Of a DNA stretch of 42,576 bases, positions 3,494 to 33,059 are shown piece by piece. Source of the stretch: a virus; the IMG/VR virus record IMGVR_UViG_3300036827_000072, positions 1 through 42,576 of that record. The stretch is one strand, 5' to 3'. Numbering within the stretch: the stretch's first letter is position 1; each line of letters starts with the position of its first letter. Under the pieces are notes generated by a model, which had not been told where the DNA came from, ran no database searches, and worked only from the letters and a program-made list of their open reading frames with translations. The translations under genes were made by a program, and so were the position numbers.

Positions 3494-3681
3494 TGAGCAC
3501 CCCGGAGCGTCACGGCGAGCTCGAGCAGCGGTCGAGCGTGAAGATCTCGACGACCGCAAAAGGCGACCCGCAGGTCGAAGTCAAGATCTACGACGGCACC
3601 AGCGAACCCGACGTCACGAAGATCCGCGAGCTCGCGGTCGACGCGTACAAGGCTGCACGGCAGGCAGTGGCGACGACATGA
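3493..3681 (+). CDS. Hypothetical protein (62 aa)
   Basis: The ATG shares its A with the preceding TGA (TGATG). It has a beta-rich middle (VKISTTAKGDPQVEVKIYDG) and a C-terminal helix. Small proteins with this strand pattern recur beside recT in actinobacterial phages. Function unknown. Confidence 0.6.
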   Translation: MSTPERHGELEQRSSVKISTTAKGDPQVEVKIYDGTSEPDVTKIRELAVDAYKAARQAVATT

Positions 3682-3875
3682 CGTTCGTCCGCCGCCGCTC
3701 GACGAAGGCTCGCGTGCGCCCTGGCGACATCCTCGAGACACACGCGGGGAAGCGGTTCACCTATCAGCACGTCGGCGTGCCCGGCACCTCGATCATCGTT
3801 CACCCGACCGGCACCACGCATCCGACCCGGCCGCGGCGCGTGGCCGGCTTCGCCGACTTGGAGTGGTCGCGGTGA
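3678..3875 (+). CDS. Small basic protein (65 aa)
   Basis: ATGA overlap with the gene before. The chain is very basic at the N-terminus (RRRSTKARVRPGD) and has a short beta-rich body, suggesting nucleic-acid binding. The stop lies inside the start region of the sbcD-like gene (GTG 3872). Confidence 0.55.
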   Translation: MTFVRRRSTKARVRPGDILETHAGKRFTYQHVGVPGTSIIVHPTGTTHPTRPRRVAGFADLEWSR

Positions 3876-5071: not shown

Positions 5072-7266
5072 ACCCGATCGCGATCCGGGCGACGAACGTG
5101 CGCACGTTCGAGAGCCTCGACCTCGACCTCCCCACCGGGTGCGTCGTGATCGCCGGCGAGAACGGCGCGGGCAAGTCGACGATCCTGAACCTGATCGACG
5201 TCGCGCTATTCGCCGAGCGCGGCGAGCTCCGCGCGTTGCTCTCGCTCGGCGAGGAGGAGCTGACGATCGAGCTGCAGTTCGAGCACGCCGGCGAGCTGTA
5301 CCGGGTGCGGCGCATGTACTCCGGCAAGGGCGCCGGCAAGACAACGCTCGACCTCGAGCACGCCGGCACCGGCGAGCCCAGCGACGAGCTCTGGATGCCG
5401 CTGACGCGTGAGACGGCGATCGCGACGCAGGCCTACCTCGAGCAGGTGCTCGGGCTTTCCCGGGCGACGTTCCGCGCGAGCTCGTTCCTCGCCCAGGGAG
5501 ACGGCGCCGCGTTCACCGACGCCCAGCCCCGAGACCGGAAGGCGATCCTCGCCGAGATCCTCGGGCTCGGTCTGTACGACCGCCTCCAGCAGCACGCACG
5601 CCTCGAGCTCAGGCCGGCCGAAGACCAGATCGTCGAGCTGCGCGGGAAGATCTCGCGCCTCGAGGAGGACGCCGCCGGCGCTACACAAGCACAGGCCGAC
5701 CTCGCGACCGCGCGCGGCGACCTGGCCGCGGCGCTCGAGCAGCACGCCGCCGCGGAGCAGCAGCTCGAGCAGGCCCAGCAGGCCCATGCTGTGAACGCCG
5801 CCGCCCACGAACGGTGGTTGCGCGCCGGAGCCACCCTCGCCGCCGTCCAGGCCGACCAGGAGCGCGCACGCGTCGCCTACGCCGCCGCAGTGCAGGCCGG
5901 CATCGACCGTGAGGGACGGCAGCGAGATCTCGACCAGGCGGCCGAGGTCGCCGCAACCGCGGCCGGGCTTGAGGAGCGCATCACCGCCGCCAACGCGATC
6001 GTCGGACTGGTCAAGGCCCGTCGCGAGCTCGACCGTGAAGCCGACCAGCGCGACCTCGCCCGCGAACGCCTCGCCCGTGAAGCGACGCAGCTGGGCGAGC
6101 ACGTCGCCGAGCTGAACCGCAAGGCCGACCACCTCGACGCGCACATCGGTGAGGCCTCAGAATGTGACCGCTGCGGACAGACCCTCGGCGCGGAAGCCGC
6201 GGCCCGTGCGGCGGCCAGCTACCGCGCCGAGGCAGCCGTCGCCGCCGACCGCGCCGACCTGATGGCCGCCGGCGACGTCGCCGAGCAGGAAGCCGTCGAC
6301 GAGCTCCGCGAACGCGCGGCCGCGATCGAGATCCCCGAGACGATGGAGGACACCGCCAGGCTCGGGCAGCTCCTCGCTGCGGCTCGTGCCGCCGGCGAAC
6401 GCCGCGCTGTGCTCGTCGAGCAGGTGCGGCAGCTCGCCGAGCAGGCGGCCACGGCCGCCGAGCTCGCGATCAAGCTGGCCCACGCCGCCGACGCGACGAA
6501 GGAGGCCGAGAGCGCGACGGCCGACGCGGCGGCCCAGGTCGGAGACGTCACGCAGCTCGAGCAGGCTGTCGCCGGCGCACGCGCAACCCTTGCGAACGCG
6601 AGCTATTCGGTGGCCGGCTACCGCGACCAGATCGCCCGCCTCGAAGTCGCCGAGCAGCACGCCGTCAAGGCGGCCGACGAGGCACAGCAGGCCACGGTCG
6701 AGATCAGCGCGATCGCGTTGCGCGTCGACGTGCTGAAGCTCGCCGACCGAGCGTTCGGCCGCGACGGCATCCCTGCCCTGATCGTCGAGAACGCCGCGAT
6801 CCCGCAGCTCGAGGTCGAGGCGAACCGGATCCTCGTCGAGCTCGGCGGTGCGACCGCCGACTGCCGCGTCGAGCTGCGCACGCAGCGCGCCCTCAAGACC
6901 GCCGATGCGCTGCGGGAGACGCTCGACATCGTGATCGTCACACCTGCCGGTGAGCGGCCGTACGAGTCGTTCTCGGGCGGCGAACGCACCAGGCTGAACC
7001 TCGCCCTCCGGATCGCACTCGCCAGGCTGCTCGCGCACCGTCGCGGCGCCGAGAGCAGGTTGCTCGCGATCGACGAGCCCGAGTTCCTCGACGAAGCCGG
7101 CGTCGCCCGCCTCGCCGACGTGCTCCGCGGCCTGTCGGGCGACTTCGACCGGATCCTCCTCGTCTCGCATCACCCGACGCTCGCCGCGGCGTTCGACCAG
7201 GCGATCGTCGTCGTCAAGGACGGCGACCGGTCCCGCGTCGGCGACGCCGTGGCGGTGCCAGCGTGA
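5068..7266 (+). CDS. sbcC: SbcC/Rad50-like ATPase
   Basis: A 732-residue ABC-type ATPase in two halves. Walker A GENGAGKST is at residues 30-38; the ABC signature SFSGGER is near 634-640 and Walker B RLLAIDEPE near 664-672. Between them lie two long coiled-coil arms rich in Ala/Glu/Gln/Arg, with a zinc hook CDRC at Cys366-Cys369. It is somewhat shorter than cellular SbcC (about 1000 residues), as in T4 gp46. It should dimerise through the hook and drive the SbcD-like nuclease. The GTG overlaps the sbcD stop. Confidence 0.9.
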   Translation: MNPIAIRATNVRTFESLDLDLPTGCVVIAGENGAGKSTILNLIDVALFAERGELRALLSLGEEELTIELQFEHAGELYRVRRMYSGKGAGKTTLDLEHAGTGEPSDELWMPLTRETAIATQAYLEQVLGLSRATFRASSFLAQGDGAAFTDAQPRDRKAILAEILGLGLYDRLQQHARLELRPAEDQIVELRGKISRLEEDAAGATQAQADLATARGDLAAALEQHAAAEQQLEQAQQAHAVNAAAHERWLRAGATLAAVQADQERARVAYAAAVQAGIDREGRQRDLDQAAEVAATAAGLEERITAANAIVGLVKARRELDREADQRDLARERLAREATQLGEHVAELNRKADHLDAHIGEASECDRCGQTLGAEAAARAAASYRAEAAVAADRADLMAAGDVAEQEAVDELRERAAAIEIPETMEDTARLGQLLAAARAAGERRAVLVEQVRQLAEQAATAAELAIKLAHAADATKEAESATADAAAQVGDVTQLEQAVAGARATLANASYSVAGYRDQIARLEVAEQHAVKAADEAQQATVEISAIALRVDVLKLADRAFGRDGIPALIVENAAIPQLEVEANRILVELGGATADCRVELRTQRALKTADALRETLDIVIVTPAGERPYESFSGGERTRLNLALRIALARLLAHRRGAESRLLAIDEPEFLDEAGVARLADVLRGLSGDFDRILLVSHHPTLAAAFDQAIVVVKDGDRSRVGDAVAVPA

Positions 7267-8644: not shown

Positions 8645-8993
8645 TCCAGTGAGCGACGGCGTCGAGGTCGAGCGCATGGAAAACCCATCACGTCTCTTCT
8701 GGGGGCCAGTCGTGCGCTTCTTCGTCGGCGGACCGCTCAACGGTCGAGCGATCGAGGGCCGCGACAGTCGCGAGGACGAAGCCGGCCCAATGGCCGCGAC
8801 GAACGACTACTGGCACGAGTGGTTCCTCTACGAGCCTTGCGGGACGAACGAGCGCGACTGGATCGTCTGTGTCCTCAACCACGCTGAGACGCTGCGGCGC
8901 GCGAACGAGCGGTACATCGACGGCAGGATCGACCTTGACGAGTTCGAGCAGGCCGTCGATTGGGCGCTTGAGGCAGAGACGATGGCCGCATGA
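8634..8993 (+). CDS. Hypothetical protein (119 aa)
   Basis: The GTG at 8634 is preceded by GGAGG at 8623-8627 and overlaps the previous gene by 11 bp; GTG 8649 is an alternative. It contains FFVGGPLNGR, an aromatic WHEWFLYEP segment and a C-terminal helix with DLDEFEQAVDWAL. Unknown role. Confidence 0.55.
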   Translation: MGLSPVSDGVEVERMENPSRLFWGPVVRFFVGGPLNGRAIEGRDSREDEAGPMAATNDYWHEWFLYEPCGTNERDWIVCVLNHAETLRRANERYIDGRIDLDEFEQAVDWALEAETMAA

Positions 8994-10057
8994 GCCCAGC
9001 GTGGATCCGCCCCCGCGCGGTCAACAAGACAGCACGGAACCCGCGCGGCCGCAGCCACCAGGTGCTCTACCGGCGAGGCGGCCGCCTCCACAAGATCGAA
9101 TCCGCCGGCACCTTCAAGACCCAGGCCGAGGCACGCACCCGTCGTGACCTCGTCGCCGGCTGGCTCGCCGCTGGCCTCGACCCGAAGGCCGAGCTCGCAA
9201 AGCTCACCGCCGCCACAGTCGAGACCCGGGCGCCGGCGGAGATCCGCGACGACTGGCTCCGCTCCCGCCATCAGCTCGACGAGAAGACGAAGCACATCTA
9301 CCGCAACGGCACCGACGCCGCGATCCGGCTGCTCGAGCTCCGCGACCTCGCCGCCGTCACCGTCACCGACTGCGAGCGCCTCGTCGGCCTGCTCGCGGAC
9401 GAGTACGCGATCGCGTCGGTCACGACGTACTGGCAGGCGTTCGCGCAGCTCCTCGACTACGCGGGCCTCGACCCGAACCCGGCACGCTCGAGGCGGATCA
9501 AGCTGCCCCGTCAGAAGCGGACGCCGCCGACGGTGCCGACCGCCGACCACGTCGCCGTGATGCTGCGCCGGATCGCCGCGAAGTACGTGCTGGCGATGGT
9601 GCTGATCGAGCAGACCGCCGTCCGCGTCGAGACGATCGACACCCTCGCCTGGGGGAACGTCGACGTCGCCGGCCTGCAGCTGCGGATCACCGAGAAGGGC
9701 CGCAAGGTTCGCTGGGTGCCGCTCCCCCGTTGGCTGATGCGTCAGCTCGAGGAGACCTGCCCGCTCGAGGACCGGCTGCCCGACCGCAGGCTCTTCGCCG
9801 GCATCACCTCGAGTGGGCTGCGGGGTGCGATGTCGCAGGCGTGCCGGCTCGGGAAGATCCCGCACTACCACCCGCACGACCTCCGCCACCGCCGCGCGTC
9901 GCTGTGGCACCTGCAGGGCATCCCCGACGCCGTGCTCGCCGAGCGTGTCGGGCACGAGCGGGCCTCGTTCACGAAGGACGTCTACGTGCACGTGATGCCG
10001 GTCGAGGAGATCCCCGACGAGCGCCTCGAGGCGATCGTCGTGGAGGCACGGGCGTGA
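8990..10057 (+). CDS. int: Tyrosine integrase
   Basis: A 355-residue lambda-integrase-type recombinase. It has an N-terminal arm-binding-like region (about 1-85), a core-binding SAM-like domain (about 85-165) and a catalytic domain. Catalytic residues visible: Arg212 (AVRVETI), Lys236 (ITEKGRK), His296 and Arg299 (HPHDLRHRR), His322 (VGHERAS) and nucleophile Tyr332 (DVYVHV). It makes the phage temperate by integrating at attP/attB. The stop TGA and the stop of the convergent gene lie together in the palindrome TGACGTCA (10055-10062). The likely attP lies about 400 bp downstream. Confidence 0.93.
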   Translation: MSPAWIRPRAVNKTARNPRGRSHQVLYRRGGRLHKIESAGTFKTQAEARTRRDLVAGWLAAGLDPKAELAKLTAATVETRAPAEIRDDWLRSRHQLDEKTKHIYRNGTDAAIRLLELRDLAAVTVTDCERLVGLLADEYAIASVTTYWQAFAQLLDYAGLDPNPARSRRIKLPRQKRTPPTVPTADHVAVMLRRIAAKYVLAMVLIEQTAVRVETIDTLAWGNVDVAGLQLRITEKGRKVRWVPLPRWLMRQLEETCPLEDRLPDRRLFAGITSSGLRGAMSQACRLGKIPHYHPHDLRHRRASLWHLQGIPDAVLAERVGHERASFTKDVYVHVMPVEEIPDERLEAIVVEARA

Positions 10058-10682: not shown

Positions 10683-11201
10683 ATCCGCCTGCTACTCGCC
10701 AGCGTCTTCGCGGCGCTCGTCATCGTCCCATCCTGCTTCGCAGCTTCCCCTGACGCTCTGCACCGTAGGGAGCACCGCCAGGTGAAGTCCCTCCACCGCT
10801 ACGTCGGGACGATCCGGTTCTTCCGATCGCACCCGCGGCTCGCTCGGTCGCCGATCGGCCGGCGCGAGGTGCGCCGCGCCCGTGTGTGGGTGACCGTGAT
10901 CCGTCGCGAGCTCGCCGAGACGAAGGCGCAGCTGCAGCCGCGGCGGCCGCTGTTCGATCGTGGCTGGCTCGCTGAGGCGACGTGCATCCACGAGCACGAG
11001 GGCGCGTGGAACGCGAACACCGGCAACGGCTACTTCGGCGGCTTTCAGTTCCTGCTCGGCACGTGGGCGTCGGTTGGCGGCACGGTCCGCCCCGATCTCG
11101 CGTCGCCGCAGGAGCAGCTCCACCGCGCACGCCTCGTGTGGTTGCGTGATGGCGGGTCGTGGCGTGAGTGGGGCACCGCCGGAATGTGCGGGCTCGCGTG
11201 A
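10683..11201 (+). CDS. Secreted Rpf-like transglycosylase, probable ATC start
   Basis: The C-terminal domain matches resuscitation-promoting-factor/transglycosylase-like lysozyme folds: CIHEHEGAWNANTGNGYFGG, then FQFLLGTWASVGG and a final Cys. The Glu in this motif is the likely catalytic acid for cleaving peptidoglycan glycan strands. Canonical gene calling would start at GTG 10782, but the frame is open upstream and encodes a signal peptide (RLLLASVFAALVIVPSCFAA). The only well-placed start is ATC at 10683, 8 bp after AAGGAG (10669-10674); an in-frame TGA lies at 10608. With this start the protein has 172 residues. It could act in infection-phase wall opening or lysis. Confidence 0.75.
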   Translation: MRLLLASVFAALVIVPSCFAASPDALHRREHRQVKSLHRYVGTIRFFRSHPRLARSPIGRREVRRARVWVTVIRRELAETKAQLQPRRPLFDRGWLAEATCIHEHEGAWNANTGNGYFGGFQFLLGTWASVGGTVRPDLASPQEQLHRARLVWLRDGGSWREWGTAGMCGLA

Positions 11202-17164: not shown

Positions 17165-17440
17165 CGACATCCGACCAACCTGCTTCACTCACCACGTCTA
17201 GCGAACGGGCACGGGACAGGCTGACTGAACGCCTGCACCCACCCAACCGCCCAGCGCGCTCACTCGCTCACCAGCCGGCCAACCAGTCGGCTTTTCTATG
17301 CCCGCGCCCAGCACACAGCCACGCGTCGCGAGGGCTCACCGTGCACGCCATCACCCGGGGGGTGGGTCAGCGACGGGCTATGGGCGCGTCACTCACCCGT
17401 CCTGGGGTCGAAAAATCCGGTTACGGGTTCGGGGGATTGA
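17165..17440. other. Early-late junction, 276 bp without a clear gene
   Basis: Holds a terminator-like hairpin (17273-17297) and a G-rich palindromic run, CACCC-ggg-GGGTG (17352-17364). A TTG ORF starting at 17161 runs through it and on into the glycosyltransferase gene in another frame; I do not accept it as coding. The late promoter and, possibly, the cohesive-end site could be here, but neither is identified. Confidence 0.45.
17273..17297 (+). terminator. Probable terminator of the early operon
   Basis: AGCCG (17273-17277) pairs with CGGCT (17288-17292), followed by TTTCT. The stem is short (5 bp with a 10-nt loop) but the T-run is unusual in this GC-rich genome and it lies right after the last early gene. 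Confidence 0.5.
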
Positions 17441-18856
17441 ATGAGCGACCGCGTGATGGCCGGTGTCGCGTCGATCCCGGAGCGTGTCGGTTCGCTCGAG
17501 CGGACGGTCGCGTCGCTGGCGCCGCAGGTCGATCGGGTCGTGGTCGCGTTGAACGAGTACGAGCATCCGCCGCAGTTCCTGGCGAGGCACGCGAACGTCG
17601 AGGTGCTGATGCGCGGCCCGGTGAACGGCGGCGACGCGGAGAAGTTCGCCGGCGTCGACGAGTGGGACGGGTTCGTCGCGACGTGCGACGACGACCTGCT
17701 CTACCCGCCCGACTACGTCGAGACCCTGGTCGCCGGTGTCGAGCGGTACGAGCGTCGCGCCCTGGTCGGGTTCCACGGCGGCACGACGCTCGGGTGGACT
17801 GGCGCCGCGCTCGCGGCGACGCACAAGCAGATTCGCTGCCTCGGCGAGCTCGACGTCGACGACGTCGACGTGAACGTGGTCGGCACCGGGGCGATGGGCT
17901 TCCACGCCGATCATGTGCCGGTCTGGCGTGACGCGTTCCCGTTCGCGAACATGGCCGACGTTCAGCTCGCGTGTCACGCGCGGCGGCTCGGTGTGCCGAT
18001 GGTCGCGCTTGCGCACGAGGCCGGCTGGCTGACGGACATCTGTCCTGCGGACGGCCGCCGGATCTACGAGTCGAACCAGGCGCGCGACGGGTCGGCTTGC
18101 GACACGCGTTCGCTGCGCCGGGCGGAGCTCGACCGGGTCGACTGGGTATCGCCTGCGCCGGCGCGGCCGCGGGTGCGTGTGTCGATCGCGACGTGTGCTC
18201 GGCCGCACTTGCTGCCGGGGCTGCTCGCCGACCTTGTCCGGGAGGCCCGGTGGGTCGATCTCGAGGTTGCGGTGTTCGAGGATCCTTCGGATGCCGACTA
18301 CGCCGATGCGCGCGCGATCGTCGCGGAGCACGGCTGGAGCTGGCATCGGTTCGATGAGCGGCTCGGGAAGCGTGAGCACTGGCAGCTCGTCAACCTCGAG
18401 CTCGCCAGGTGCCGGTTCTCGGACGCGGGCTGGTTCGCGTTCCTGCCCGACGACGTCAGGCTGACCCGGCATGCGTTGCCGCGTGCGATGCAGATCTGGG
18501 ATCGCCTCGAGGAGCCGGCGGCGTTGACGCTGTGGCGGCTGAAGGATCACGAGGGGCAGCCGAACTGGACGGGGTTGCCGCCGGTCGAGCGCGAGCATGC
18601 GTGGGAGGTCTTCCACCTCGACGGGATCTATCTCTGCCGCCGGGAGACGCTTGAGCACCTCGGTTTCGGGTGCCCGGCGCTGTCGCGGCAGCGGCTGACG
18701 TCGAGCGGTGTCGGGCGTGCGATGTCGATCCAGTTGCACGCCGGCGGGAAGCGCCTCTACCGCGTCGACCGGTCGCTCGCGATCCCCGTGATGGACGAGC
18801 CGAGCGTGATGAACCCGGACGCCCGCGACCGCCTCTACCCCGGGGTGGCGCTGTGA
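17441..18856 (+). CDS. Two-domain glycosyltransferase (GT-A-like)
   Basis: 471 residues made of two successive GT-A-like halves. The first begins VMAGVASIPERVGSLERTV and has an acidic nucleotide-sugar site in TCDDDLLYP (Asp83-Asp85). The second begins near residue 244 (RVRVSIATCARP) and has FLPDDVRL (Asp337-Asp338). GGGGGA precedes the ATG. It probably transfers sugars to a virion protein, DNA or a host surface glycan. Mycobacteriophages are known to glycosylate capsid and tail proteins with their own glycosyltransferases, and this gene sits at the head of the structural operon. The longer leftward frame over the same bases has no motifs and is a shadow. Confidence 0.75.
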   Translation: MSDRVMAGVASIPERVGSLERTVASLAPQVDRVVVALNEYEHPPQFLARHANVEVLMRGPVNGGDAEKFAGVDEWDGFVATCDDDLLYPPDYVETLVAGVERYERRALVGFHGGTTLGWTGAALAATHKQIRCLGELDVDDVDVNVVGTGAMGFHADHVPVWRDAFPFANMADVQLACHARRLGVPMVALAHEAGWLTDICPADGRRIYESNQARDGSACDTRSLRRAELDRVDWVSPAPARPRVRVSIATCARPHLLPGLLADLVREARWVDLEVAVFEDPSDADYADARAIVAEHGWSWHRFDERLGKREHWQLVNLELARCRFSDAGWFAFLPDDVRLTRHALPRAMQIWDRLEEPAALTLWRLKDHEGQPNWTGLPPVEREHAWEVFHLDGIYLCRRETLEHLGFGCPALSRQRLTSSGVGRAMSIQLHAGGKRLYRVDRSLAIPVMDEPSVMNPDARDRLYPGVAL

Positions 18857-19833
18857 ACCTGCTTCTGAGCCCGCACAACGACGACGAGGCGCTCTTCGCG
18901 TCGTACACGCTCCTACGCGCGCGGCCGAGGGTGCTTGTCGCGCTGGACGGTGGCCGGAAGAAGCACTACCCGCTGCCGGCGGCGCGCGCGGCCGAGAGCG
19001 CCGCGGCGATGGCCGTGCTCGGCTGCGACTTCGAGCACCTCGGGTTCGCGTGTGAGGACGCCGACTGGGACGCCGTCGAGGCCCGTTTGCGCCTCGAGGA
19101 CGAGCCGGAGCACGTCTGGGCGCCTCTGCCGGAGGTGAACGGGCACCGTCACCACAACCGGCTCGCCGGCCTCGCCGTCAGGCTGTGGCCCGGCCGCGTG
19201 AGTTTCTACTCGACGTACACGATGGTCGACGACTGGCCCGTCCGCTCCCGCGTCGGCGAGCTCGTCGACGCCGAGCTGGGCTGGGATGAGCTGAAGAGGC
19301 GCGCGCTCGGCTGCTACGCGACGCAGATCGCGAGCCCCGGCACGAGCATGCACTTCGACCAGCCGCTCGACGAGTACTCGATGTCGTCGATCAGGCTGAA
19401 CCTCGCGTCCGGTCCGAACCCGATCGCCGGCTTCGTGAACCTCGACAAGTCGACCGGCTGGATGTTCGAGGAGGGCCTCGAGGCCTACGCCGACGGATCC
19501 GTCGACGCGATCACAGTGTCGCACGCGCTCATGTACGTGCCGCTCCTCGCATGGGGCGCCGTCTTCGCCGAGCTCGCCCGGGTGCTCGCTCCTGGAGGCG
19601 TGCTGCGCGTGACCGAGGACGCGATCGGCGCCCCGGGAAGCACGCGCCCGGTGATCCGTCCGCACGCGATGGTCGCGACGAGCCAGGAGCTCGTGCTCGG
19701 CCACATGTCCGCCGCCGGCCTGAACGCGACCCCGGTCGAGCCCGGCTGCACGCTGTTCGTCGACGGCACGCTGATCCAGCAGAACTACGGGTCACCACCC
19801 GACGTTTTCCACGCCGAGGGCGTGAAGGCGTGA
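18853..19833 (+). CDS. PIG-L/LmbE-like deacetylase fused to SAM methyltransferase
   Basis: The GTG overlaps the glycosyltransferase stop. 326 residues. The N-terminal ~170 residues match PIG-L/LmbE zinc deacetylases: SPHNDDEAL (His8, Asp10-Asp11) and a second metal site, GHRHHN (His98-His101). The C-terminal half is a class I SAM methyltransferase: LNLASGPNPIAGFVNLD as motif I and the following acidic residue, DAITVSHALMYVP as motif IV-like, and VLAPGGVLRVTED as the typical post-IV strand. PIG-L enzymes remove N-acetyl groups from GlcNAc-type sugars; methylation of the same sugar is a plausible second step. I do not know this fusion from well-studied phages. Confidence 0.8.
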   Translation: MNLLLSPHNDDEALFASYTLLRARPRVLVALDGGRKKHYPLPAARAAESAAAMAVLGCDFEHLGFACEDADWDAVEARLRLEDEPEHVWAPLPEVNGHRHHNRLAGLAVRLWPGRVSFYSTYTMVDDWPVRSRVGELVDAELGWDELKRRALGCYATQIASPGTSMHFDQPLDEYSMSSIRLNLASGPNPIAGFVNLDKSTGWMFEEGLEAYADGSVDAITVSHALMYVPLLAWGAVFAELARVLAPGGVLRVTEDAIGAPGSTRPVIRPHAMVATSQELVLGHMSAAGLNATPVEPGCTLFVDGTLIQQNYGSPPDVFHAEGVKA

Positions 19834-20054
19834 CGAACCGGATCGGCAAGCAGGCCGTGCGCGTCGAGGCGACGCGGATCTTCGGGATGCCGCGGCAGCA
19901 GGCCCGCCAGGTCGTCTCGGACCGCATCGCGCGCGCCTACCTCCTCGACGGCGACGAGCAGCTCGTCGCGCTCGAGTTCAACGCGCACCTCGCGACCGAG
20001 CTCCGCGAGCTCGCCGAGGCCGTCAACGAGCCGAACATCTGGAGTGCGGGTTGA
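19830..20054 (+). CDS. Small hypothetical protein in the glycan cassette (74 aa)
   Basis: GTGA and TTGA overlaps on both sides. Helical and basic N-terminus (RIGKQAVRVEATRIFGMP), acidic C-terminus. No motif. It is locked between the fusion enzyme and the second glycosyltransferase, so it may assist them. Confidence 0.55.
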   Translation: MTNRIGKQAVRVEATRIFGMPRQQARQVVSDRIARAYLLDGDEQLVALEFNAHLATELRELAEAVNEPNIWSAG

Positions 20055-20740
20055 TCACCGCGATCATGTGCTGGTTCGACGAGCCCGTCGAGCTGCTCGA
20101 GCGATGCGTCGGGTCGCTCGCCGGCGTCGCCGACCACTTCGTCGCGCTCGACGGCCGCTGGGAAGGCTTCCCCGGCGACCTCGTCAACAGCAGCCCCGCC
20201 GAGGCCGCCGCGATCGCGCGTGCCTCCCGTGCCGCCGGCGTTGCGGGCACGGTCGTCCATCCCGGTTTCGTCTGGTCGAGCCAGGTCGCGAAGCGCACGA
20301 CGGCGATCGACCTCGCGCCTACGGCGACGGACTGGCTTCTGATCGTCGACGCGGACGAGTATGTGCTCGACGTCGACCGCCAGGCGCTCGACGAGATCCT
20401 CGCAGACACACCTCGCGACGTTGCCGAGCTCGAGCTGACGAACTTCGCGAGCCGGTTCCCGCTCGACCGGATGCGCTCGAACGTCTACCGCGTCCGCCGC
20501 CTCTTCCGCGCGGCCGCGAAGCCGCGGTACGAGCTCGCCCACAACGGCGTGCGCAACGCCGCCGGCGCGTGGCTGTCCGGCGACCGCGGCTACGTCGAGC
20601 TCGCCGACGCCGTCGACGCGACCGCGGGGATCTCGCTCGGCCATGCGATCGACGCAAGGCCGGTCGACCGGCAGCGCCGGCGCGCCGACTACTACCGGGC
20701 ACGCAACGCTGCGCGCACCGAAGACTGGGCGGCCGCGTGA
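20051..20740 (+). CDS. GT-A glycosyltransferase (229 aa)
   Basis: TTG start overlapping the previous stop. It begins like GT2 enzymes (ITAIMCWFDEPVELLERCV), has VDHF-like FVALDGRWEGFPG, and a DxD-type metal/nucleotide-sugar motif in IVDADEYV (Asp100-Asp102). The His in ISLGHAID may complete the metal site. It resembles short glycosyltransferases found next to packaging genes in actinophages. The acceptor is unknown. Confidence 0.78.
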   Translation: MITAIMCWFDEPVELLERCVGSLAGVADHFVALDGRWEGFPGDLVNSSPAEAAAIARASRAAGVAGTVVHPGFVWSSQVAKRTTAIDLAPTATDWLLIVDADEYVLDVDRQALDEILADTPRDVAELELTNFASRFPLDRMRSNVYRVRRLFRAAAKPRYELAHNGVRNAAGAWLSGDRGYVELADAVDATAGISLGHAIDARPVDRQRRRADYYRARNAARTEDWAAA

Positions 20741-21087
20741 TGCCACGCCGTCCGTGCCTCACGTGCGGAAAGCCGTCCGAGGGTTCCCACTGCCCGCAGC
20801 ATCAGCCCGACGACAACGCGCGCCGCAACGCGAAGACCGTCGAGCACGGCGTGAAGCGCTCGCATTTCCAGAAGTTGCGGCCGCTCGTCTTCGACGCTGC
20901 CGGCGGGCTGTGCGAGATCCGGCTGCGGGGCTGCACACGCGTCGCGACGACGGTGCACGTCGACCCGGCGCTCGAGGGGAACCACGACATCGCGACGCTC
21001 GAGGACTGTCAGGCGGCCTGCGCGCACTGCCACGGCGTAACCGACGGCGCGCGCTCATCGTCTTCGCGACGGGCGGTGGCGGTCTGA
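20740..21087 (+). CDS. HNH endonuclease next to terminase
   Basis: 115 residues; ATG directly follows a GTG at 20737. An N-terminal zinc knuckle (CLTCGKPSEGSHCPQH) is followed by an HNH fold: RPLVFDAAGGLCEI, the VHVDPALEGNH loop and the C-terminal CAHCH metal site. The first catalytic His is in VHVDP rather than the common DH, a small departure. HNH proteins adjacent to terminase are required for cos cleavage in HK97-type phages, so this suggests cohesive ends. Confidence 0.8.
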   Translation: MPRRPCLTCGKPSEGSHCPQHQPDDNARRNAKTVEHGVKRSHFQKLRPLVFDAAGGLCEIRLRGCTRVATTVHVDPALEGNHDIATLEDCQAACAHCHGVTDGARSSSSRRAVAV

Positions 21088-21530
21088 TGGCGATCCCGGG
21101 CCCGAAGCCGCGCGAGGCGTCGAAGCGCGCCCGCACGAACGCCGAGACGTTCCAGCCGATCGAGCTCGACCACGCGACGGCGCCGACCAAGGCGCGGCCG
21201 CTGCACGGCTCGAAGGGCTTCACGGCGGCGACCAGGCGCAGGTGGCGGATGTGGGCGACCTCACCGCAGGCTGCGGTGTTCCTCGAGACCGACTGGCTCG
21301 TGCTCGAGCGGCTCGCCCGGCTGTGGGATGCGTTCGAGCTCGGCGACCTCGGTGTCGCGTCGGAGATCCGGTTGACGGAGGCGAAGCTCGGCGCGACGAC
21401 CGAGGACCGGTTGAGGCTGCGGATGCGCTTCGCCGAGGCCAAGGGTGCCGAGGAGCGGCAGCCGGCCACCCGGAAGTCGTCACGTGGCGGCAGGGATCCG
21501 CGGTTGACGCTCGTCGGGGATGACGCGTGA
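21087..21530 (+). CDS. terS: Terminase small subunit
   Basis: 147 residues, TGATG-coupled to the HNH gene and 4-bp coupled to the large subunit. After a basic proline-rich start, the body is helical: KGFTAATRRRWRMWATSPQA, then ETDWLVLERLARLWDAFEL. This is the P27-type small terminase pattern. It should bind the packaging site and deliver DNA to the large subunit. Confidence 0.8.
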   Translation: MAIPGPKPREASKRARTNAETFQPIELDHATAPTKARPLHGSKGFTAATRRRWRMWATSPQAAVFLETDWLVLERLARLWDAFELGDLGVASEIRLTEAKLGATTEDRLRLRMRFAEAKGAEERQPATRKSSRGGRDPRLTLVGDDA

Positions 21531-23173
21531 ACGAGCCGCGCCTCCTGCTGCCGGCGATGGATCCGGTGCCGTGGCCGACGCTCGGGCCCGAGCTCGCCGA
21601 CTGGTTCGAGGAGCACCTCGTCCATGGTCCCGGCGACGTTCGCGGCCAGCGGATCGAGCTGACCGACGAAGAGCGCCTCTTCCTCTACCGGGCGTACGAG
21701 GTCTACCCGCACGGTGATCCGCAGGCGGGCCGTCGGCGCTTCAAGCGCGTCGTCTACTCGCGCCGCAAGGGCACCCGCAAGACCGAGCTCGCCGCGTGGA
21801 TCGCGATCGCGGAGATGGATCCGACCGCCCCGGTGCGCTGCACAGGCTGGCGCGAAGAGGCCGGCGTGATGGTGCCTGTCGGCGGCCCGGTCACGGACCC
21901 GTACATCCCGATGGTCGCGACGACCGAGGAGCAGTCCGAAGACCTCGCCTACGGTGCGGTGAAGGCGATCCTCGAGAACTGCGAGCTCGGCAACCGGTAC
22001 TACATCGGCGAGGAGCGGATCCTGCACCGTGACGCGCCGGGCGAGCTGAAGGCGCTCGCTCAGGCGCCGAACGCGCGCGACGGTGCCCGGACGACGTTCC
22101 AGCACTTCGACGAGACGCACCTTTTCGCGTCGGAGCGGCTGAAGAGCTCGCACGCGACGATGCTCCGGAACGTCCCGAAGCGGTCCCTGGGCGATGCGTG
22201 GTCGCTCGAGACGACCACGATGTACGCGCCGGGCGAGGAATCGGTCGCCGAGCTCTCGCATCTGTACGCGGAGGAGATCCGCGCCGGCCGCGTCGACGAC
22301 GCACGCCTCTTCTTCGACCACCGGCAGGCGTCCGAGACGCATGACCTCGACACCCGCAAGGGGCTGCTCGCCGCGATCATCGAGGCGTCGGGTGACGCGA
22401 TCGCGTGGGCGGACGTCGAGTCGATCGCGTCGCAGTACCGGGAGGCGGCCGCGAACCGCGACGAGGGCGCGAAGAACCGGTTCCGCCGCTACTGGCTGAA
22501 CCAGCGCCGCTCGCTCGCCCGCCGCGCCTACCCGCCCGACCTATGGGCCGCACGCGCGGACGTCGAGCGGGAGGTCCCGAAGGACTCCGAGATCGTCGTC
22601 TTCTTCGACGGCTCCTACAGCCGCGACTCCACAGCGCTGATCGGCTGCACGGTCGAGGAGAAGCCGCACATCTTCGTCATCGCCGCCTGGGAACGTCCCG
22701 CCGGCGCGACGCGGTGGCGCACACCACGCAACGAAGTACTCGACGCGATCGACGAGACGATGGCCGACTACCGCGTGCTCGAACTCGCCCCCGACCCGCC
22801 CGGCTGGGTGCGCGAGGTCGAAGATCTCGAAGCGACCTACGGCGAGACCGTCGTCCGGTTCGAGACGAACCAGCCGTCACGGATGGGGCCCGCCTGCGAC
22901 GAGTTCGAGCAGGCGCTCCGCGGCACCGGCGAGCACGCCGACGGCGTCCTGCCCGAGGGCGGCTTCACCCACGACGGCGACGAGCGCCTCGCCCGCCACA
23001 TCTCGCACTGCGTCGCGAAGAAGCGCGGCCGCTGGATCCTCGTCACGAAGGAGACCGACGACTCGCCGCTCAAGATCGACCTCGCCGTCGGCGCGATCGG
23101 CGCGTTCCACCGTGCGACGTGGCACCACGCCAACCCGACTGTGAGCGGAGGTACAGGATTCGCGTTCGCGTAA
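21527..23173 (+). CDS. terL: Terminase large subunit (ATPase-nuclease)
   Basis: 548 residues, GTG start. The ATPase has a variant Walker A, SRRKGTRKTE (about 78-87), and a Walker B/catalytic Glu in FQHFDETH (about 192-199). The RNase-H-like nuclease begins at VVFFDGSYSRDSTAL with the first metal Asp near 361. This motor packages DNA into the prohead and cuts concatemers. It lies in the canonical HNH-TerS-TerL-portal order. Confidence 0.92.
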   Translation: MNEPRLLLPAMDPVPWPTLGPELADWFEEHLVHGPGDVRGQRIELTDEERLFLYRAYEVYPHGDPQAGRRRFKRVVYSRRKGTRKTELAAWIAIAEMDPTAPVRCTGWREEAGVMVPVGGPVTDPYIPMVATTEEQSEDLAYGAVKAILENCELGNRYYIGEERILHRDAPGELKALAQAPNARDGARTTFQHFDETHLFASERLKSSHATMLRNVPKRSLGDAWSLETTTMYAPGEESVAELSHLYAEEIRAGRVDDARLFFDHRQASETHDLDTRKGLLAAIIEASGDAIAWADVESIASQYREAAANRDEGAKNRFRRYWLNQRRSLARRAYPPDLWAARADVEREVPKDSEIVVFFDGSYSRDSTALIGCTVEEKPHIFVIAAWERPAGATRWRTPRNEVLDAIDETMADYRVLELAPDPPGWVREVEDLEATYGETVVRFETNQPSRMGPACDEFEQALRGTGEHADGVLPEGGFTHDGDERLARHISHCVAKKRGRWILVTKETDDSPLKIDLAVGAIGAFHRATWHHANPTVSGGTGFAFA

Positions 23174-23343
23174 CCCAGCTCTTCACCCGTGCACGCTGCA
23201 AGGCCGCCGCCCAGGCGGCCTTTTTCGTGGCCGGACTGATCCTTCTCCCGGTCGGCATCGCCGCGATCTACCTCCCGGCAGGTGTGATCGCCACCGGCGT
23301 CGAGTCGATCCTCGCCGGCGCCTACCTGAGAGGTGGCAGATGA
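23158..23343 (+). CDS. Small membrane protein between terL and portal, probable ATT start
   Basis: The frame ends with ATGA overlapping the portal start, the junction used throughout this genome. It encodes a basic N-terminus (RVRVTQLFTRARCK) and two hydrophobic stretches (AAFFVAGLILLPVGIAAIYL and PAGVIATGVESILAGAY). The best ribosome-binding site is GGAGG at 23147-23151, 6 bp before an ATT at 23158; no ATG/GTG/TTG lies nearby. A later in-frame GTG at 23227 would give 38 residues without a Shine-Dalgarno. Function unknown. Confidence 0.5.
   Translation: MRVRVTQLFTRARCKAAAQAAFFVAGLILLPVGIAAIYLPAGVIATGVESILAGAYLRGGR
23200..23225 (+). terminator. Strong terminator-like hairpin after terL
   Basis: AAGGCCGCC (23200-23208) pairs perfectly with GGCGGCCTT (23214-23222) around a 5-nt loop and is followed by further T residues. 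It lies within the small membrane ORF. It may reduce read-through from terminase into head genes or be a coincidence of the Ala-rich coding sequence. Confidence 0.5.
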
Positions 23344-24734
23344 GCACACCCCTGCTCTCCCAGATCAGCCGCGGCCTCGGCCTGCGTCAAGAGGTCGCCG
23401 GCGCGCTGTCGATCGAGGACGTCGCGAACCTCCTAGCCCTCGACAACCTCGGCTTCCCGTTCCTGAACCAGTCGCTGATCGGGAACCTCGAACCGATCGA
23501 GGGCGACTACGTCGGCCTCGCACGCGGCGCGATGAAGGGCGACGCGATCGTCTTCTCGTGCATCGCGCTGCGCGCGAAGATCCTTAGCGAGGCCCGGTTC
23601 GCGTTCCGCGACATCCAGGAGGACGGCCGCCCCGGCCAGCTCTCCACCGGGCCCGAGCTCGACATCCTCAAGGCACCGTGGTCGGGCGCGACGACCGGCG
23701 AGCTGATCGCGCGCGCCGAGGTCTACACCGCGATCGGCGGCAACTTCTACGCCGCGCGCAGGCCGAACGGCACGATCCGCGCGCTCCGCCCCGACTGGAC
23801 GTACATGGTCGTCGGCGTCGCCGACGGCGACCCCGAGAACGACGACCCCTGGTCGATCGACGCTGAGGTCATCGGCTTCCAGTACCACGAAGGCGGCCCG
23901 ATGCTCGGACGCGAGCCGCTGAACCTCCTCGCCGACGAGGTCGCGCACTTCGCACCGATGATCGACCCCGAGGCGCGCTTCCGCGGCATGTCGTGGCTGA
24001 CGCCGGTCGTCCGCGAGATCGAGGCCGACAAGTCGATGACGAAGCACAAGCTCGCGTTCCTCGAGCACGGCGGCACCTCGAACATGGTTGTGAAGAACCC
24101 CGAGCCCGACCTCGCGAAGTTCCAGGAGTGGGTGAAGAACTTCAAGACCGAGCACGGCAGTGTCTCGAACCGTTACAAGACGCTCTTCCTGCAGACAGGC
24201 ATCGACGTCGAGGTGATCGGCTCGAACCTGCAGGAGATCGACTTCAAGAACGTGCAAGGCGCAGGCGAGTCACGCATCGCCGCCGCGGCCGGCATCCACC
24301 CCGCCCTCGGCGGCTTCTCCGAAGGGCTGCAGGGATCGGCGCTCAACCGTGGCAACTTCGCCGAGATCCGCCGCAACTTCGGCGACATGCACGCCTCCCC
24401 GTGGTGGCGTGAGCTGTGCGGGTCGCTCGCGAAGATCATTGACGTCCCGGACCAGAAAGAGCTCTGGTACGACGCGCGCGACGTCGCCTTCCTCGCGCAA
24501 AACCACGTCGACGCGACGGCCTCGCAGAAGAACCAGGCGGAGACGCTTTCGACGATGTTCATGGCCGGCTGGGAGCCCGACTCGATCGTCGACTGGCTCC
24601 GCACTGGCGACATGACCGTGCTGAAGCACAGCGGCGTCGACTCCGTGCAGGTGCAGGGCACCGCGGCCGCCGAGCCGGCGGCGCAGAACGGCCACTCCGA
24701 CCGGCTGCCGGTCCTACCAAGGGAGCAATCATGA
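23340..24734 (+). CDS. Portal protein (HK97 family)
   Basis: 464 residues. Matches the HK97-type portal: the N-terminal crown region, FSCIALRAKILSEARF early in the chain, a central RFRGMSWLTPVVREI stem motif, and AAGIHPALGGFSEGLQGS near residue 315. The portal dodecamer forms the DNA channel at the head vertex. It follows terminase and overlaps the protease-capsid gene by 4 bp. Confidence 0.9.
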   Translation: MSTPLLSQISRGLGLRQEVAGALSIEDVANLLALDNLGFPFLNQSLIGNLEPIEGDYVGLARGAMKGDAIVFSCIALRAKILSEARFAFRDIQEDGRPGQLSTGPELDILKAPWSGATTGELIARAEVYTAIGGNFYAARRPNGTIRALRPDWTYMVVGVADGDPENDDPWSIDAEVIGFQYHEGGPMLGREPLNLLADEVAHFAPMIDPEARFRGMSWLTPVVREIEADKSMTKHKLAFLEHGGTSNMVVKNPEPDLAKFQEWVKNFKTEHGSVSNRYKTLFLQTGIDVEVIGSNLQEIDFKNVQGAGESRIAAAAGIHPALGGFSEGLQGSALNRGNFAEIRRNFGDMHASPWWRELCGSLAKIIDVPDQKELWYDARDVAFLAQNHVDATASQKNQAETLSTMFMAGWEPDSIVDWLRTGDMTVLKHSGVDSVQVQGTAAAEPAAQNGHSDRLPVLPREQS

Positions 24735-27364
24735 AACACGACTACCGGCTGCTCGGACAGCTCGTCTCCGAGACGCCTTGGCAGATCCTGCCGTCGAAGC
24801 TGCACGAGATCCAGCAGTTCTGGTCGCGCGTGCTCGCCGGCGACGTCCTGTCGGACGCGGAGATCGAAGAGATCACGTCGGCGGCGCAGCAGCGCCGCTC
24901 GAGGCCTGCGGCCGGCTCGATCGGTGTGCTGCCGCTCTACGGGTCGATCTTCCCGAAGGCGAACCTAATGGCCGACATCAGCGGCGGCACCTCGCTCGAC
25001 GCGTTCGCCGCGGTCTACCGCGGGATGATGGCCGACCCGAACATCGCCGCGGTCGTGATGGACGTCGACTCGCCCGGCGGGTCGGCGGCGATGCTCACCG
25101 AGACGGCCGCGATCATTCGCAAAGAGAAGACGAAGCCGCTCGTCGCGGTCGCGAACACGATGGCCGCCTCTGCGGCATTCGGTCTCGCCGCCCAGGCCGA
25201 TGAGTTCGTCGCGTCACCGTCAGCGGTTGTCGGCTCAGTCGGCACCTACATGCTCCACCAGGACCTGACCGCGGCGCTCGAGGCCGAGGGCGTGAAGATC
25301 ACGGCCATCCAGTCGAGCCCGGCAAAGACTGAGACGGCACCGTTCGTCGCTCTCTCCGACGAAGCGCAGCAGGCGCTGCAGCACATGGTCGACCAGTACC
25401 AGGCGATCTTCGTTTCTGACATCGCGAAGGGCCGCGGCACGACCGACGCGACTGTCCGGAAGAACTACGGCGACGGGCGCCTCCTCACGGCGCAGGACGC
25501 GCTGGCCGCTGGGATGGTCGACCGCGTCGACACGTTCGAGAAGGTCGTAACAGGGCTCCTCAAGAGCAACGGGTCGATGTCGATGGGCCGGTCGACGGCG
25601 TTCATTCCGGCCCGTGACGGCGAGCGCGAGCTCGTCGGGGTCGGCGAGGCGGTCGCGGCCGCGTCGGCTGACTTCCGGGCGATGCCGGTCGAGCAGCTCC
25701 GCGAGGTGTTCTTCGGGCTGCTCCCCGCCGGCGCGACGCCAGCGCCGAAGGGCTCGAGCGAGACGGACGCGCTCGCCGAGCCCGTCAAAGAACTCGACGC
25801 CATCCCGGCGTCAGTGCAAGCGACCGCAGCCGCGGTCACCAGCCGCGCGACGGCGACGGCACCTACCCCCAAGGCCAAGGAGGCCACAGTGAAGAGCAAG
25901 GAAGAGCTCGTCGCGCAGCGCGAGACCCTCGCGGCGCGGACGCAGGAGATCAACACCGAGCACTCGGGCACGCTGCTCGAGGGCGAGCCGCGCGTCGAGT
26001 ACGACGAGGCGATGCAGGCGATCGACCAGATCGACATCACCCTCGCCGACCTCGCGAAGCGGGAGGCCGACCAGGCCCGCATCGGGGCCGTCGCCGAGGC
26101 GAACAAGGACGCGATCGAGGGCGGCAACGGCGCAGTCGCGCGGAAGTCGTTCGGCACGAACGCCGACCGCAAGGGCCCCCAGAACATCTGGGACCTCGCG
26201 GGCTACCAGAAGCACGCACGCTCGCTCGACGAGCTCGCGGGCCTCTACGCGGACGGGGCGAAGCGGGCGAACGAGACGGTGCTGTACGCGACGGACAAGC
26301 AGGAGCGGCCGAAGTCGTTCGTCGAGCAGCTGCTCGGCGCCGACTCGAAGGATGCCCAGTTCGCCCAGCGGATGATCGTCACGTCCGACCCGGCGTTCGA
26401 CAAGGCGTTCGGGAAGCTCGTGATGGGCCGGCCGCTCTCGAACGCCGAGCAGTCGCTGATCAACCAGGCCGTCACGATCACGGGCCTCGGCGCGGAGACG
26501 CCGGTGCCGGTGCAGATCGACCCGACGGTGCTGCTCACCTCCGACGGGGTCGCGAACCCGATGCGGGCGATCAGCCGCAACGTCACGATCACCGGCAACA
26601 CCTGGAGGGGCATCTCGTCCGACGGCGTCACGGTCGACTACGCGGCGGAGCTCGCCGAGGTCACCGCACAGACGCCGACCTTCGACGCACCGGACGTCAC
26701 GGTCGTGAAGGCGCAGGCCGAGGTGCAGTTCTCGATCGAGGCCGACGAGGACTGGGGCGCGCTCCGGTCCGAGCTCGCGCTGATGTTCCAGGACGCGAAG
26801 GACACCAAGGAGGCGAACAAGTTCCTCTTCGGCGACGGCTCCGACGAGCCGGAAGGGCTGATCACGGCCCTCACGACCGACGGGACCTCGATCATCGACA
26901 CGGCGTCGGTGAACACCCTCGCGATCTCCGACCTCGACCTGGTCGTCGACGACCTGCCGCCGCGCTTCGACGCGAACGCGCAGTGGATCGGCAACCGCGG
27001 CGTCTACTCGGCGCTGCGGGCCCTCGCGGGCAGCCGGCTCGACTTCTGGGTGCCGCTCGCCCAGGGCTTCCGGAATCGGCCGCAGGGCACGACCGGCTAC
27101 ACCCTGATCGACTACCCCGTGAACGTCGCGTCCGAGATGTCGCGCGCGGTCACGACCGGGAGCGAGAAGGTGCTCGTCCTCGGCGACTTCGGCCGCGGCT
27201 TCGTGATCGTCGACCGGGTCGGCCTGAACGTCGAGCTCGACCCGCTCGTCCGCAACAGCAACGGGAAGCTGATCGGGGCGCGTGCGCTCTACGTCTACTT
27301 CCGCAACACCTCCGCGCTCCGGACGCCGAACGCGTTCCGGATGCTCCGGATCAAGCACAGCTAA
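24731..27364 (+). CDS. S49-type prohead protease fused to HK97 major capsid protein
   Basis: One 877-residue frame. Residues 1-~290 are an S49/SppA-like serine protease: DVDSPGGS (111-118), nucleophile Ser147 in TMAASAAFG, and Lys198 in AKTETAPF matching the catalytic Lys of this family. A Pro/Ala-rich linker (about 320-385) follows, then a delta/scaffold-like helical region (about 387-470), then the HK97-fold capsid (ITGLGAETPVPV through ALYVYFRN). The protease should mature the prohead. Fusions of this sort have been seen in some phages but are uncommon. An internal start at 25889 probably makes the capsid part separately. Confidence 0.88.
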   Translation: MKHDYRLLGQLVSETPWQILPSKLHEIQQFWSRVLAGDVLSDAEIEEITSAAQQRRSRPAAGSIGVLPLYGSIFPKANLMADISGGTSLDAFAAVYRGMMADPNIAAVVMDVDSPGGSAAMLTETAAIIRKEKTKPLVAVANTMAASAAFGLAAQADEFVASPSAVVGSVGTYMLHQDLTAALEAEGVKITAIQSSPAKTETAPFVALSDEAQQALQHMVDQYQAIFVSDIAKGRGTTDATVRKNYGDGRLLTAQDALAAGMVDRVDTFEKVVTGLLKSNGSMSMGRSTAFIPARDGERELVGVGEAVAAASADFRAMPVEQLREVFFGLLPAGATPAPKGSSETDALAEPVKELDAIPASVQATAAAVTSRATATAPTPKAKEATVKSKEELVAQRETLAARTQEINTEHSGTLLEGEPRVEYDEAMQAIDQIDITLADLAKREADQARIGAVAEANKDAIEGGNGAVARKSFGTNADRKGPQNIWDLAGYQKHARSLDELAGLYADGAKRANETVLYATDKQERPKSFVEQLLGADSKDAQFAQRMIVTSDPAFDKAFGKLVMGRPLSNAEQSLINQAVTITGLGAETPVPVQIDPTVLLTSDGVANPMRAISRNVTITGNTWRGISSDGVTVDYAAELAEVTAQTPTFDAPDVTVVKAQAEVQFSIEADEDWGALRSELALMFQDAKDTKEANKFLFGDGSDEPEGLITALTTDGTSIIDTASVNTLAISDLDLVVDDLPPRFDANAQWIGNRGVYSALRALAGSRLDFWVPLAQGFRNRPQGTTGYTLIDYPVNVASEMSRAVTTGSEKVLVLGDFGRGFVIVDRVGLNVELDPLVRNSNGKLIGARALYVYFRNTSALRTPNAFRMLRIKHS
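25889..27364 (+). CDS. Internal in-frame start: scaffold plus major capsid product (491 aa)
   Basis: Inside the fusion gene, AAGGAGG at 25877-25883 precedes an in-frame GTG at 25889 by 5 bp. Initiation here would give 491 residues: a charged coiled-coil delta-like domain (KSKEELVAQRETLAARTQE) followed by the capsid. This recalls lambda C/Nu3, where the scaffold is translated from inside the protease gene. It would solve the stoichiometry problem: many capsid subunits, few proteases. Confidence 0.72.
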   Translation: MKSKEELVAQRETLAARTQEINTEHSGTLLEGEPRVEYDEAMQAIDQIDITLADLAKREADQARIGAVAEANKDAIEGGNGAVARKSFGTNADRKGPQNIWDLAGYQKHARSLDELAGLYADGAKRANETVLYATDKQERPKSFVEQLLGADSKDAQFAQRMIVTSDPAFDKAFGKLVMGRPLSNAEQSLINQAVTITGLGAETPVPVQIDPTVLLTSDGVANPMRAISRNVTITGNTWRGISSDGVTVDYAAELAEVTAQTPTFDAPDVTVVKAQAEVQFSIEADEDWGALRSELALMFQDAKDTKEANKFLFGDGSDEPEGLITALTTDGTSIIDTASVNTLAISDLDLVVDDLPPRFDANAQWIGNRGVYSALRALAGSRLDFWVPLAQGFRNRPQGTTGYTLIDYPVNVASEMSRAVTTGSEKVLVLGDFGRGFVIVDRVGLNVELDPLVRNSNGKLIGARALYVYFRNTSALRTPNAFRMLRIKHS

Positions 27365-32060: not shown

Positions 32061-33059
32061 ATGACCTTTTTCGCAGGCAACAGCCGCAACATCATCGTCA
32101 AGAAGCAGGTCGACAAGGACACACCGATCGTCGACTTCACCGACGGGATGCTGCTCCGCATCTACGAGTTCACCCCCGACCCGTCACGCGTGATCACCGA
32201 GCTCGTCGAGAACGACGCGTCGACGCAGCAGGGCGGCTCGCACGTCTCGGCGATCACGCCCGGGCTGTCGTTCGGGATCTACGGCCGCCCCGGCGAGCTC
32301 GACCTGATCGCCGAAGCGCTCCTCGGCGACAACGACGACTCGGCGACCGTCGACCCGACGACGCACATCACGACGCCGTCGACGAACCAGCCGTATTACT
32401 CGGTCCTCGAGGTCGTCCCGTACGGTGGCGGCCGGCTGTGGGACGGCTGCCGCCTCTTCGGCGGCCAGTTCACGTCGCAGGACGACTCCGACACGGAGCT
32501 GCGCGTCACGGGGCTCGCGTTCGTCGCTCTCGGCGTCACCGACAACGTGACGGCCCCAGACCCGCTCCCGACCCCGGACCCGGAGCTGCCGTTCGTGCAC
32601 GCCGAGGCCGCGATCAAGTACGCGACCGTGCACCTCGGCCTCACGAAGCAGGTCACCGTCACGGTGAACCGCAACGGCGGCCGCCGCCAGGGCGACTCCG
32701 GCTTCCGCGCAGCCGACGCGACCCCCGGCAAGTTCGCCGTCGACGGCACCGTCTCGCGGTACACGCAGGACAACGCGATGCAGCGCGCGATCGACACCGG
32801 CTCGAAGACCGGCACCGCCGCGACGACGGACATCTACACGGAGGGGTTCTCGGTCACGTACGAGCGCGGATCGGGCGGCACGCTCCGCAGGTTCATGATC
32901 GCCGCGACCGAGATCAGCTACGCGACGCGCGACGAGGCCGAGGACAACGACGGCAACCCGTACGTCGAGGTGCTCGGGTTCCGCACCGAGCCGCAGGCCG
33001 CGCTCGCCGACAACCTCTCGATGGTCACGATCAACGGCAAGGCGACGCCGGATGCCTGA
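32061..33059 (+). CDS. Major tail (tube) protein
   Basis: 332 residues, preceded by GGGAGG. Beta-rich throughout, with SFGIYGRPGELDLIAEALLGD near residue 70 and a second beta half including FSVTYERGSG. A tube protein is expected directly before the tail chaperones. The strong, separate ribosome-binding site fits an abundant product. I see no domain beyond the tube fold; identification rests mainly on order and composition. Confidence 0.75.
   Translation: MTFFAGNSRNIIVKKQVDKDTPIVDFTDGMLLRIYEFTPDPSRVITELVENDASTQQGGSHVSAITPGLSFGIYGRPGELDLIAEALLGDNDDSATVDPTTHITTPSTNQPYYSVLEVVPYGGGRLWDGCRLFGGQFTSQDDSDTELRVTGLAFVALGVTDNVTAPDPLPTPDPELPFVHAEAAIKYATVHLGLTKQVTVTVNRNGGRRQGDSGFRAADATPGKFAVDGTVSRYTQDNAMQRAIDTGSKTGTAATTDIYTEGFSVTYERGSGGTLRRFMIAATEISYATRDEAEDNDGNPYVEVLGFRTEPQAALADNLSMVTINGKATPDA

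Follow-up and report, generated by a model that had tools for sequence, protein, structure and literature searches.

A phage gene cassette predicted to build and edit a glycan through a deacetylase-methyltransferase fusion, probably on virion proteins

An IMG/VR virus record (IMGVR_UViG_3300036827_000072; 42,576 bases, ~69% GC), analysed here at its full length and called the window, carries at 17441-20740 a cassette of four genes that combines glycosyltransferases (GTs) with predicted glycan-modifying enzymes. We propose, with a probability of about 0.6 and on the basis of sequence, that this cassette assembles a small glycan on virion proteins of the phage itself and modifies it by N-deacetylation and methylation. 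The features behind this proposal are the enzyme families themselves, the catalytic motifs of the deacetylase and GTs, the co-translation layout of the genes, the recurrent linkage of the same activities in other phages, and the placement of the cassette among head genes. Successive genes overlap by 4 bases at each junction, and the genes and their domains are as follows (aa, amino acids; GlcNAc, N-acetylglucosamine; SAM, S-adenosylmethionine).

17441-18856, plus strand: gene 1, 471 aa, ATG start; two-domain glycosyltransferase
17441-18145, plus strand: gene 1 N-terminal domain, KfiA/heparosan-synthase-like GlcNAc transferase by homology; motifs TCDDD..YPPDY, VNV.GTG and MAD
18146-18856, plus strand: gene 1 C-terminal domain, second GT-A domain (residues 238-470); FLPDDVRL and SSGVG
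18853-19833, plus strand: gene 2, 326 aa, GTG start; in-frame PIG-L deacetylase-methyltransferase fusion
18853-19377, plus strand: gene 2 N-terminal domain, PIG-L/LmbE-type zinc N-deacetylase; PHNDDE and GHxxH motifs
19378-19833, plus strand: gene 2 C-terminal domain, class I SAM methyltransferase
19830-20054, plus strand: gene 3, 74 aa, GTG start; function unknown
20051-20740, plus strand: gene 4, 229 aa, TTG start; GT-A glycosyltransferase with DAD motif

Domains of the cassette proteins

Gene 1 has a Pfam match to Glycos_transf_2 (8.8e-7), and more specific comparisons separate its halves. Residues 5-217 align with residues 301-520 of PmHS2, the GlcNAc-transferase domain of that enzyme (E = 5.1e-26 with a profile, 2.2e-18 with a single sequence), and with KfiA (3.8e-22 and 4.1e-13, respectively); the DDD and GTG motifs of KfiA/PmHS2 are retained. 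KfiA is also the top Foldseek match (E = 7.6e-8, rmsd 1.7 across 102 columns) to a low-confidence model of gene 1, built from four aligned sequences with a mean predicted local distance difference test (pLDDT) score of 54, and we use this match only because the sequence searches agree with it. KfiA is an alpha1,4-GlcNAc transferase with UDP-GlcNAc as donor (PMC12834895), and homology makes the N-half of gene 1 the probable source of GlcNAc in the cassette, with UDP-GlcNAc as its likely donor. Given this homology to GlcNAc-transferases, the cassette contains an enzyme expected to make the deacetylase's substrate, and with a GlcNAc-type deacetylase encoded immediately after it, the two form a coherent short pathway.

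The C-half of gene 1 belongs to a family that has an invariant DD and whose members match GT2. Compared with the glucuronate-transferring domain of PmHS2, it shows weak generic GT2 similarity at most (E = 0.015; -3.5 bits), so gene 1 does not appear to be a bifunctional heparosan synthase, which would have such a second domain. Members of the C-half family lie near a KfiA-like gene in ~39 other phage loci, often as a separate neighbouring gene, and in L068, L078 and L089 they are fused to a KfiA-like domain in the order opposite to that of the window. At least 145 IMG/VR stretches gave matches to KfiA-like genes.

In gene 2, the N-half scores 32 bits against Pfam PIG-L (2e-7; cut-off 28.2) and, aligned to TT1542, shows PHNDDE close to the N-terminus and the pair H98..H101. 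All 16 of the aligned PIG-L rows retain HNDDE and the second histidine of HxxH, and three have N in place of the first histidine. An AlphaFold2 model of gene 2 has a mean pLDDT of 83 and is mostly confident in the PIG-L half, for which the best functional fold matches in Foldseek are the GlcNAc-aglycone deacetylases Dbv21 and Orf2*T. Motif, family score and modelled fold thus all identify this half as a predicted PIG-L/LmbE N-deacetylase. The C-half scores 29.8 bits against Methyltransf_11 (9.5e-7; cut-off 21.2) and matches SAM methyltransferases in Foldseek, so that family score and Rossmann-type fold point to a class I SAM methyltransferase. It shares 52-66% identity with other phage members, across which VN.D is invariant.

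The fusion of these two halves recurs in frame in L002, L003 and L023, at 67, 61 and 59% identity to the window, respectively. A frameshift or misassembly was considered as the origin of the fusion and rejected: its in-frame presence in four independent contigs shows the fusion to be genuine and no sequencing error.

Gene 4 belongs to the PHROG glycosyltransferase family phrog_7009 (3.8e-22). It has tblastn matches in 49 mycobacteriophage records, and its closest relatives in phage records are Omegavirus (cluster J) glycosyltransferases such as Courthouse gp21, which is encoded 3' of the major head gene within a GT/methyltransferase cluster reaching the head-tail connector. A PDB search with gene 4 gave nothing at E <= 0.1. 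For gene 3, there was no Pfam match; it is kept in L003 at 58% identity, with nonsynonymous divergence (dN) near synonymous divergence (dS) between the two (0.33/0.35). A search of the cassette proteins against NCBIfam returned no informative match.

These assignments agree with an original prediction, made from the window's letters, of a double GT-A protein, an in-frame PIG-L/methyltransferase fusion and a second GT-A enzyme with a DxD motif: residues 238-470 of gene 1 prove to be a GT-A family separately encoded in many phages, both Pfam scores of gene 2 exceed their cut-offs, the same fusion was found elsewhere when searched for, and gene 4 supplies the DxD motif as DAD. New here are the recognition of the first GT as a probable GlcNAc source and the recurrence of the activities in other fusion orders.

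Fusion orders, placement and exchange among phages

Other arrangements were found by a search with the methyltransferase (MT) combined with domain mapping, and evident duplicates were removed. A GT gene next to a PIG-L-MT fusion is seen in the window, L002, L003 and L023. Eight lineages (L004, L006, L007, L025, L028, L031, L032 and L035) encode GT2-MT-PIG-L as a single open reading frame (ORF), and two (L026 and L036) encode GT2-MT with a separate PIG-L; the GT2 domain of these arrangements differs from the GT of gene 1. Trees of both domains place the GT / PIG-L-MT class in a separate, supported clade (98/94 and 100/100), with the standalone PIG-L of L005 as its sister (89/86). PIG-L and MT are thus found fused in either order as well as unfused, a pattern consistent with consecutive reactions on a single glycan, and we consider it quite likely that GlcNAc transfer and deacetylation do act on one glycan. 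The L005 contig (6.9 kb) encodes a PIG-L protein, a KfiA-like GT and a gene-4-like GT, with no methyltransferase on the contig; this gene content suggests that methylation was added onto an older GlcNAc-deacetylation core.

The GT2-MT-PIG-L phages share a wider cassette (8714-14051 in L007, with equivalents in L006, L025, L028, L035 and L036). It includes three more proteins lacking Pfam hits, possibly glycosyltransferases, and a second methyltransferase-like gene that is missing in L026 and L036.

Related enzyme sets are thus present in many unrelated phages from the environment, but among 50,697 phage records, no relatives of the fusion were found with gene 2 (E 1e-5), the MT-PIG-L part of L007 or a standalone PIG-L (E 1e-3) as queries. 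In one genome scan with the methyltransferase, the only cellular homologues were on two candidate-phyla contigs, L020 and L021 (Zambryskibacteria and Daviesbacteria), where the family sits amid glycosyltransferase and methyltransferase genes.

The position of the cassette differs between phages, within the head/packaging block. In the window and L003 it lies 5' of TerS/TerL; in L002 a P22-like major capsid gene is followed by two GT-like genes and the cassette; and in L023 it lies 5' of portal/head morphogenesis genes, with other GTs upstream. The PIG-L gene of L005 and L064 stands between TerL and portal, and L011 has capsid, GT-like, standalone PIG-L and methyltransferase genes in succession, followed by further structural genes. 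All ten GT2-MT lineages have the cassette within ~5 kb of TerL, although some of this synteny may be inherited. Glycosyltransferase genes within or beside the head genes, as in mycobacteriophages, are therefore a property of the cassette too.

Comparison of the window with L003 indicates that the cassette is fast-evolving. Its dN is 0.30-0.34, compared to 0.04 for TerL and 0.09-0.10 for portal and capsid, and its dS is moderately higher (0.35-0.66 versus 0.32-0.39 in TerL/portal/capsid). Protein divergence of the cassette is thus ~eightfold faster than that of TerL. The cassette of the window is closer to that of L002 (66-67% identity) than to that of L003 (61-64%), whereas its TerL is closer to that of L003 (93%, versus ~33% for L002). 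From this discordance, it follows that the cassette has probably been exchanged between phages.

The window bears out the earlier description of four tightly coupled genes heading the late/structural operon: the ORFs are real, the 4-base overlaps are present, and terminase and head genes follow downstream. Third-position GC bias typical of coding sequence is present in genes 1, 2 and 4; the scan did not pick the 74-aa ORF. About 280 noncoding bases precede the cassette, and sigma-70 promoters sought 5' of it were not found. The surrounding features are:

17273-17292, plus strand: terminator-like hairpin, a consensus match only, in the noncoding gap 5' of the cassette (1 match versus 1.1 expected in shuffles, i.e. 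chance level)
20737-23173, plus strand: HNH-like small ORF, TerS and TerL, downstream of the cassette
21114-21530, plus strand: TerS (Terminase_7, 8e-21)
21527-23173, plus strand: TerL (phrog_9, 4.8e-71)
23340-24734, plus strand: portal (phrog_12, 4.5e-29)
24731-27364, plus strand: fused head protease-major head protein (phrog_53, 2.9e-70, plus phrog_10, 1.2e-29)

The head maturation protease and major head protein form a single 877-aa ORF, the equivalent in L003 being 874 aa. Elsewhere in the window, RecT, an SbcD/Mre11-like phosphoesterase and an SbcC/Rad50-like ATPase are encoded consecutively at 2079-7266, and a small protein with a transglycosylase (Rpf-like) domain is encoded at 10782-11201, distant from the lysis genes.

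Target and editing of the predicted glycan

Late in infection, a GT-A domain (that of gene 4 or the C-half of gene 1) would prime a capsid or tail subunit with the first sugar, and the KfiA/heparosan-synthase-like half of gene 1 would add GlcNAc, with UDP-GlcNAc of the host as donor. Gene 2 would then act through its PIG-L half, taking the acetyl group off that residue to give glucosamine, and through its methyltransferase half, methylating the same residue. Either N- or O-methylation is possible; for the former, rhizobial NodC-NodB-NodS in Nod factors offers an analogy. In the mycobacteriophages Che8, Corndog and Myrna, the capsid and tail tube are glycosylated by glycosyltransferases that the phages encode (Freeman et al. 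2023, as cited in PMC12363180 and PMC12619734). This precedent, together with the head-block placement of the cassette, makes the virion the most likely target. The attach-deacetylate-methylate logic of the original prediction thus gains support from the GlcNAc-transferase domain, the repeated re-fusion and the head-block placement, while its capsid or tail acceptor is inferred from position and the mycobacteriophage precedents; the glycan would be cationic, as also predicted, only if the amine is not re-modified, and the suggested hiding of epitopes or change in adsorption would be possible consequences.

Several observations weigh against this proposal. KfiA extends sugar chains and does not prime proteins. 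Most of the retrieved KfiA-like phage loci are not close to the PIG-L family of gene 2, indicating that the GT also works without PIG-L. Ser/Thr-rich C-terminal tails were considered as candidate acceptors, and none was evident, the C-termini of the capsid protein and of the tail-tube protein encoded at 32061-33059 lacking any marked tail of this kind. Finally, the window clade has an irregular SAM glycine loop, modelled with a pLDDT of 38 at residues 181-190. Structure prediction and fold search of gene 2 thus upheld the deacetylase motif and fold and left methyltransferase catalysis less secure, because of the irregular loop and the low confidence of the model there.

One alternative is that the cassette acts on the host cell surface instead of the virion, for lysogenic conversion or to exclude superinfecting phages. 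The window encodes a tyrosine integrase at 8990-10057, so the phage is probably temperate, and an effect on the host surface has been discussed for moron genes, PIG-L included, of the Stenotrophomonas phages DLP3/DLP5 (PMC7326821, PMC5834331). However, the four cassette proteins contain no long hydrophobic or membrane-spanning segment, no flippase or polyprenol GT partner accompanies them, and the cassettes lie inside the head/packaging blocks of several backbones, not beside the integrase. Such a location is unusual for conversion genes, and we regard a host-surface role as unlikely.

The irregular glycine loop raises a different question, namely whether the methyltransferase half is a non-catalytic scaffold in the window clade, leaving the glycan deacetylated and unmethylated. 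The loop reads NLASGP in the window, NLGGEI in L003 and NLGGGI in L002/L023, compared to NLGCG in the other fusion order, and the sister locus L005 has its deacetylase and GTs with no methyltransferase on the contig. On the other hand, the acidic residue of VNLD is conserved without exception in the two fusion orders, as are many further positions, and dN/dS for the domain between the window and L003 is ~0.6 (0.33/0.57), i.e. below 1, a weak sign of constraint. On balance, the methyltransferase may be weakened, and outright loss of catalysis seems rather improbable.

Least credible is glycosylation of phage DNA, in which the GTs would sugar a hydroxymethylated base and PIG-L-MT would edit the sugar for protection against restriction: the cassette adjoins packaging genes, DNA hypermodification by phage GTs is known from other systems (Pyle 2024, as cited in PMC12619734) and YerA41 has a large, likely oligosaccharide, thymidine substitution (PMC9023294), but the GTs resemble polysaccharide GlcNAc-transferases, the kin of gene 4 lie in a head-gene cluster, and the thymidylate-synthase/hydroxymethylase family is absent from the window and eight related records (which may be fragments) in a search whose control worked, making DNA glycosylation less likely. 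The earlier statement that thymidine- and cytosine-hypermodification enzymes are absent therefore holds for the thymidylate synthase family in these nine records; the TET/JBP search had no working control.

To our knowledge, only a few phages, chiefly mycobacteriophages, have been shown to glycosylate their virions. If virion glycans are indeed the product here, more elaborate virion glycosylation with sugar editing would be spread across diverse environmental phages and missing from the phage records searched, with a bearing on phage adsorption, antibody recognition and persistence in soil. It would also account for the repeated fusions and provide a testable enzyme set (GlcNAc transfer, deacetylation and methylation). 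More speculatively, the particles of many uncultivated phages might bear short chains resembling glycosaminoglycans: heparosan-synthase-like enzymes would make them, and subsequent N-deacetylation and methylation would leave glucosamine or N-methylglucosamine on the virion, with the fusions in at least two orders arising from a relay on the nascent glycan.

Comparison with known systems

The closest known system is that of the mycobacteriophages Che8, Corndog and Myrna, whose virions are glycosylated on capsid and tail tube; the cassette shares with it phage-encoded GTs and an actinobacteriophage backbone. Omegavirus genes homologous to gene 4 also lie 3' of the major head gene. Unlike these systems, the cassette adds a GlcNAc-transferase-like domain, an N-deacetylase and a methyltransferase, known here from their genes.

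Homology to PmHS2 and KfiA extends across ~210 residues and includes the DDD and GTG motifs. In contrast to PmHS2, the partner domain in gene 1 is not a glucuronyl-transferase domain; no capsule export or UDP-glucuronate genes were seen, and the product of the cassette need not be a polymer. Dbv21 and the teicoplanin enzyme Orf2*T, which deacetylate GlcNAc attached to a peptide aglycone, have the PIG-L fold in common with gene 2, although their identity to it is only 16-17% and no methyltransferase is fused to them. The rhizobial NodC-NodB-NodS series (GlcNAc transfer, N-deacetylation and N-methylation) follows the same logic as that proposed for the cassette. NodB has a deacetylase fold different from PIG-L, the product of the series is a secreted signal, and the methyltransferase of gene 2 does not match the NodS family.

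Stenotrophomonas phages DLP3/DLP5 likewise have a PIG-L gene near a phage methyltransferase gene, but as separate genes and together with WcaG/WecE-type nucleotide-sugar enzymes (PMC7326821); their PIG-L genes were matched by neither of our PIG-L queries in tblastn. Set beside these systems, the cassette is a new form of phage glycosylation cassette, its novelty lying in the GlcNAc-transferase homology, the re-fusion in other orders, the varied placement, the fast divergence and the probable exchange between phages.

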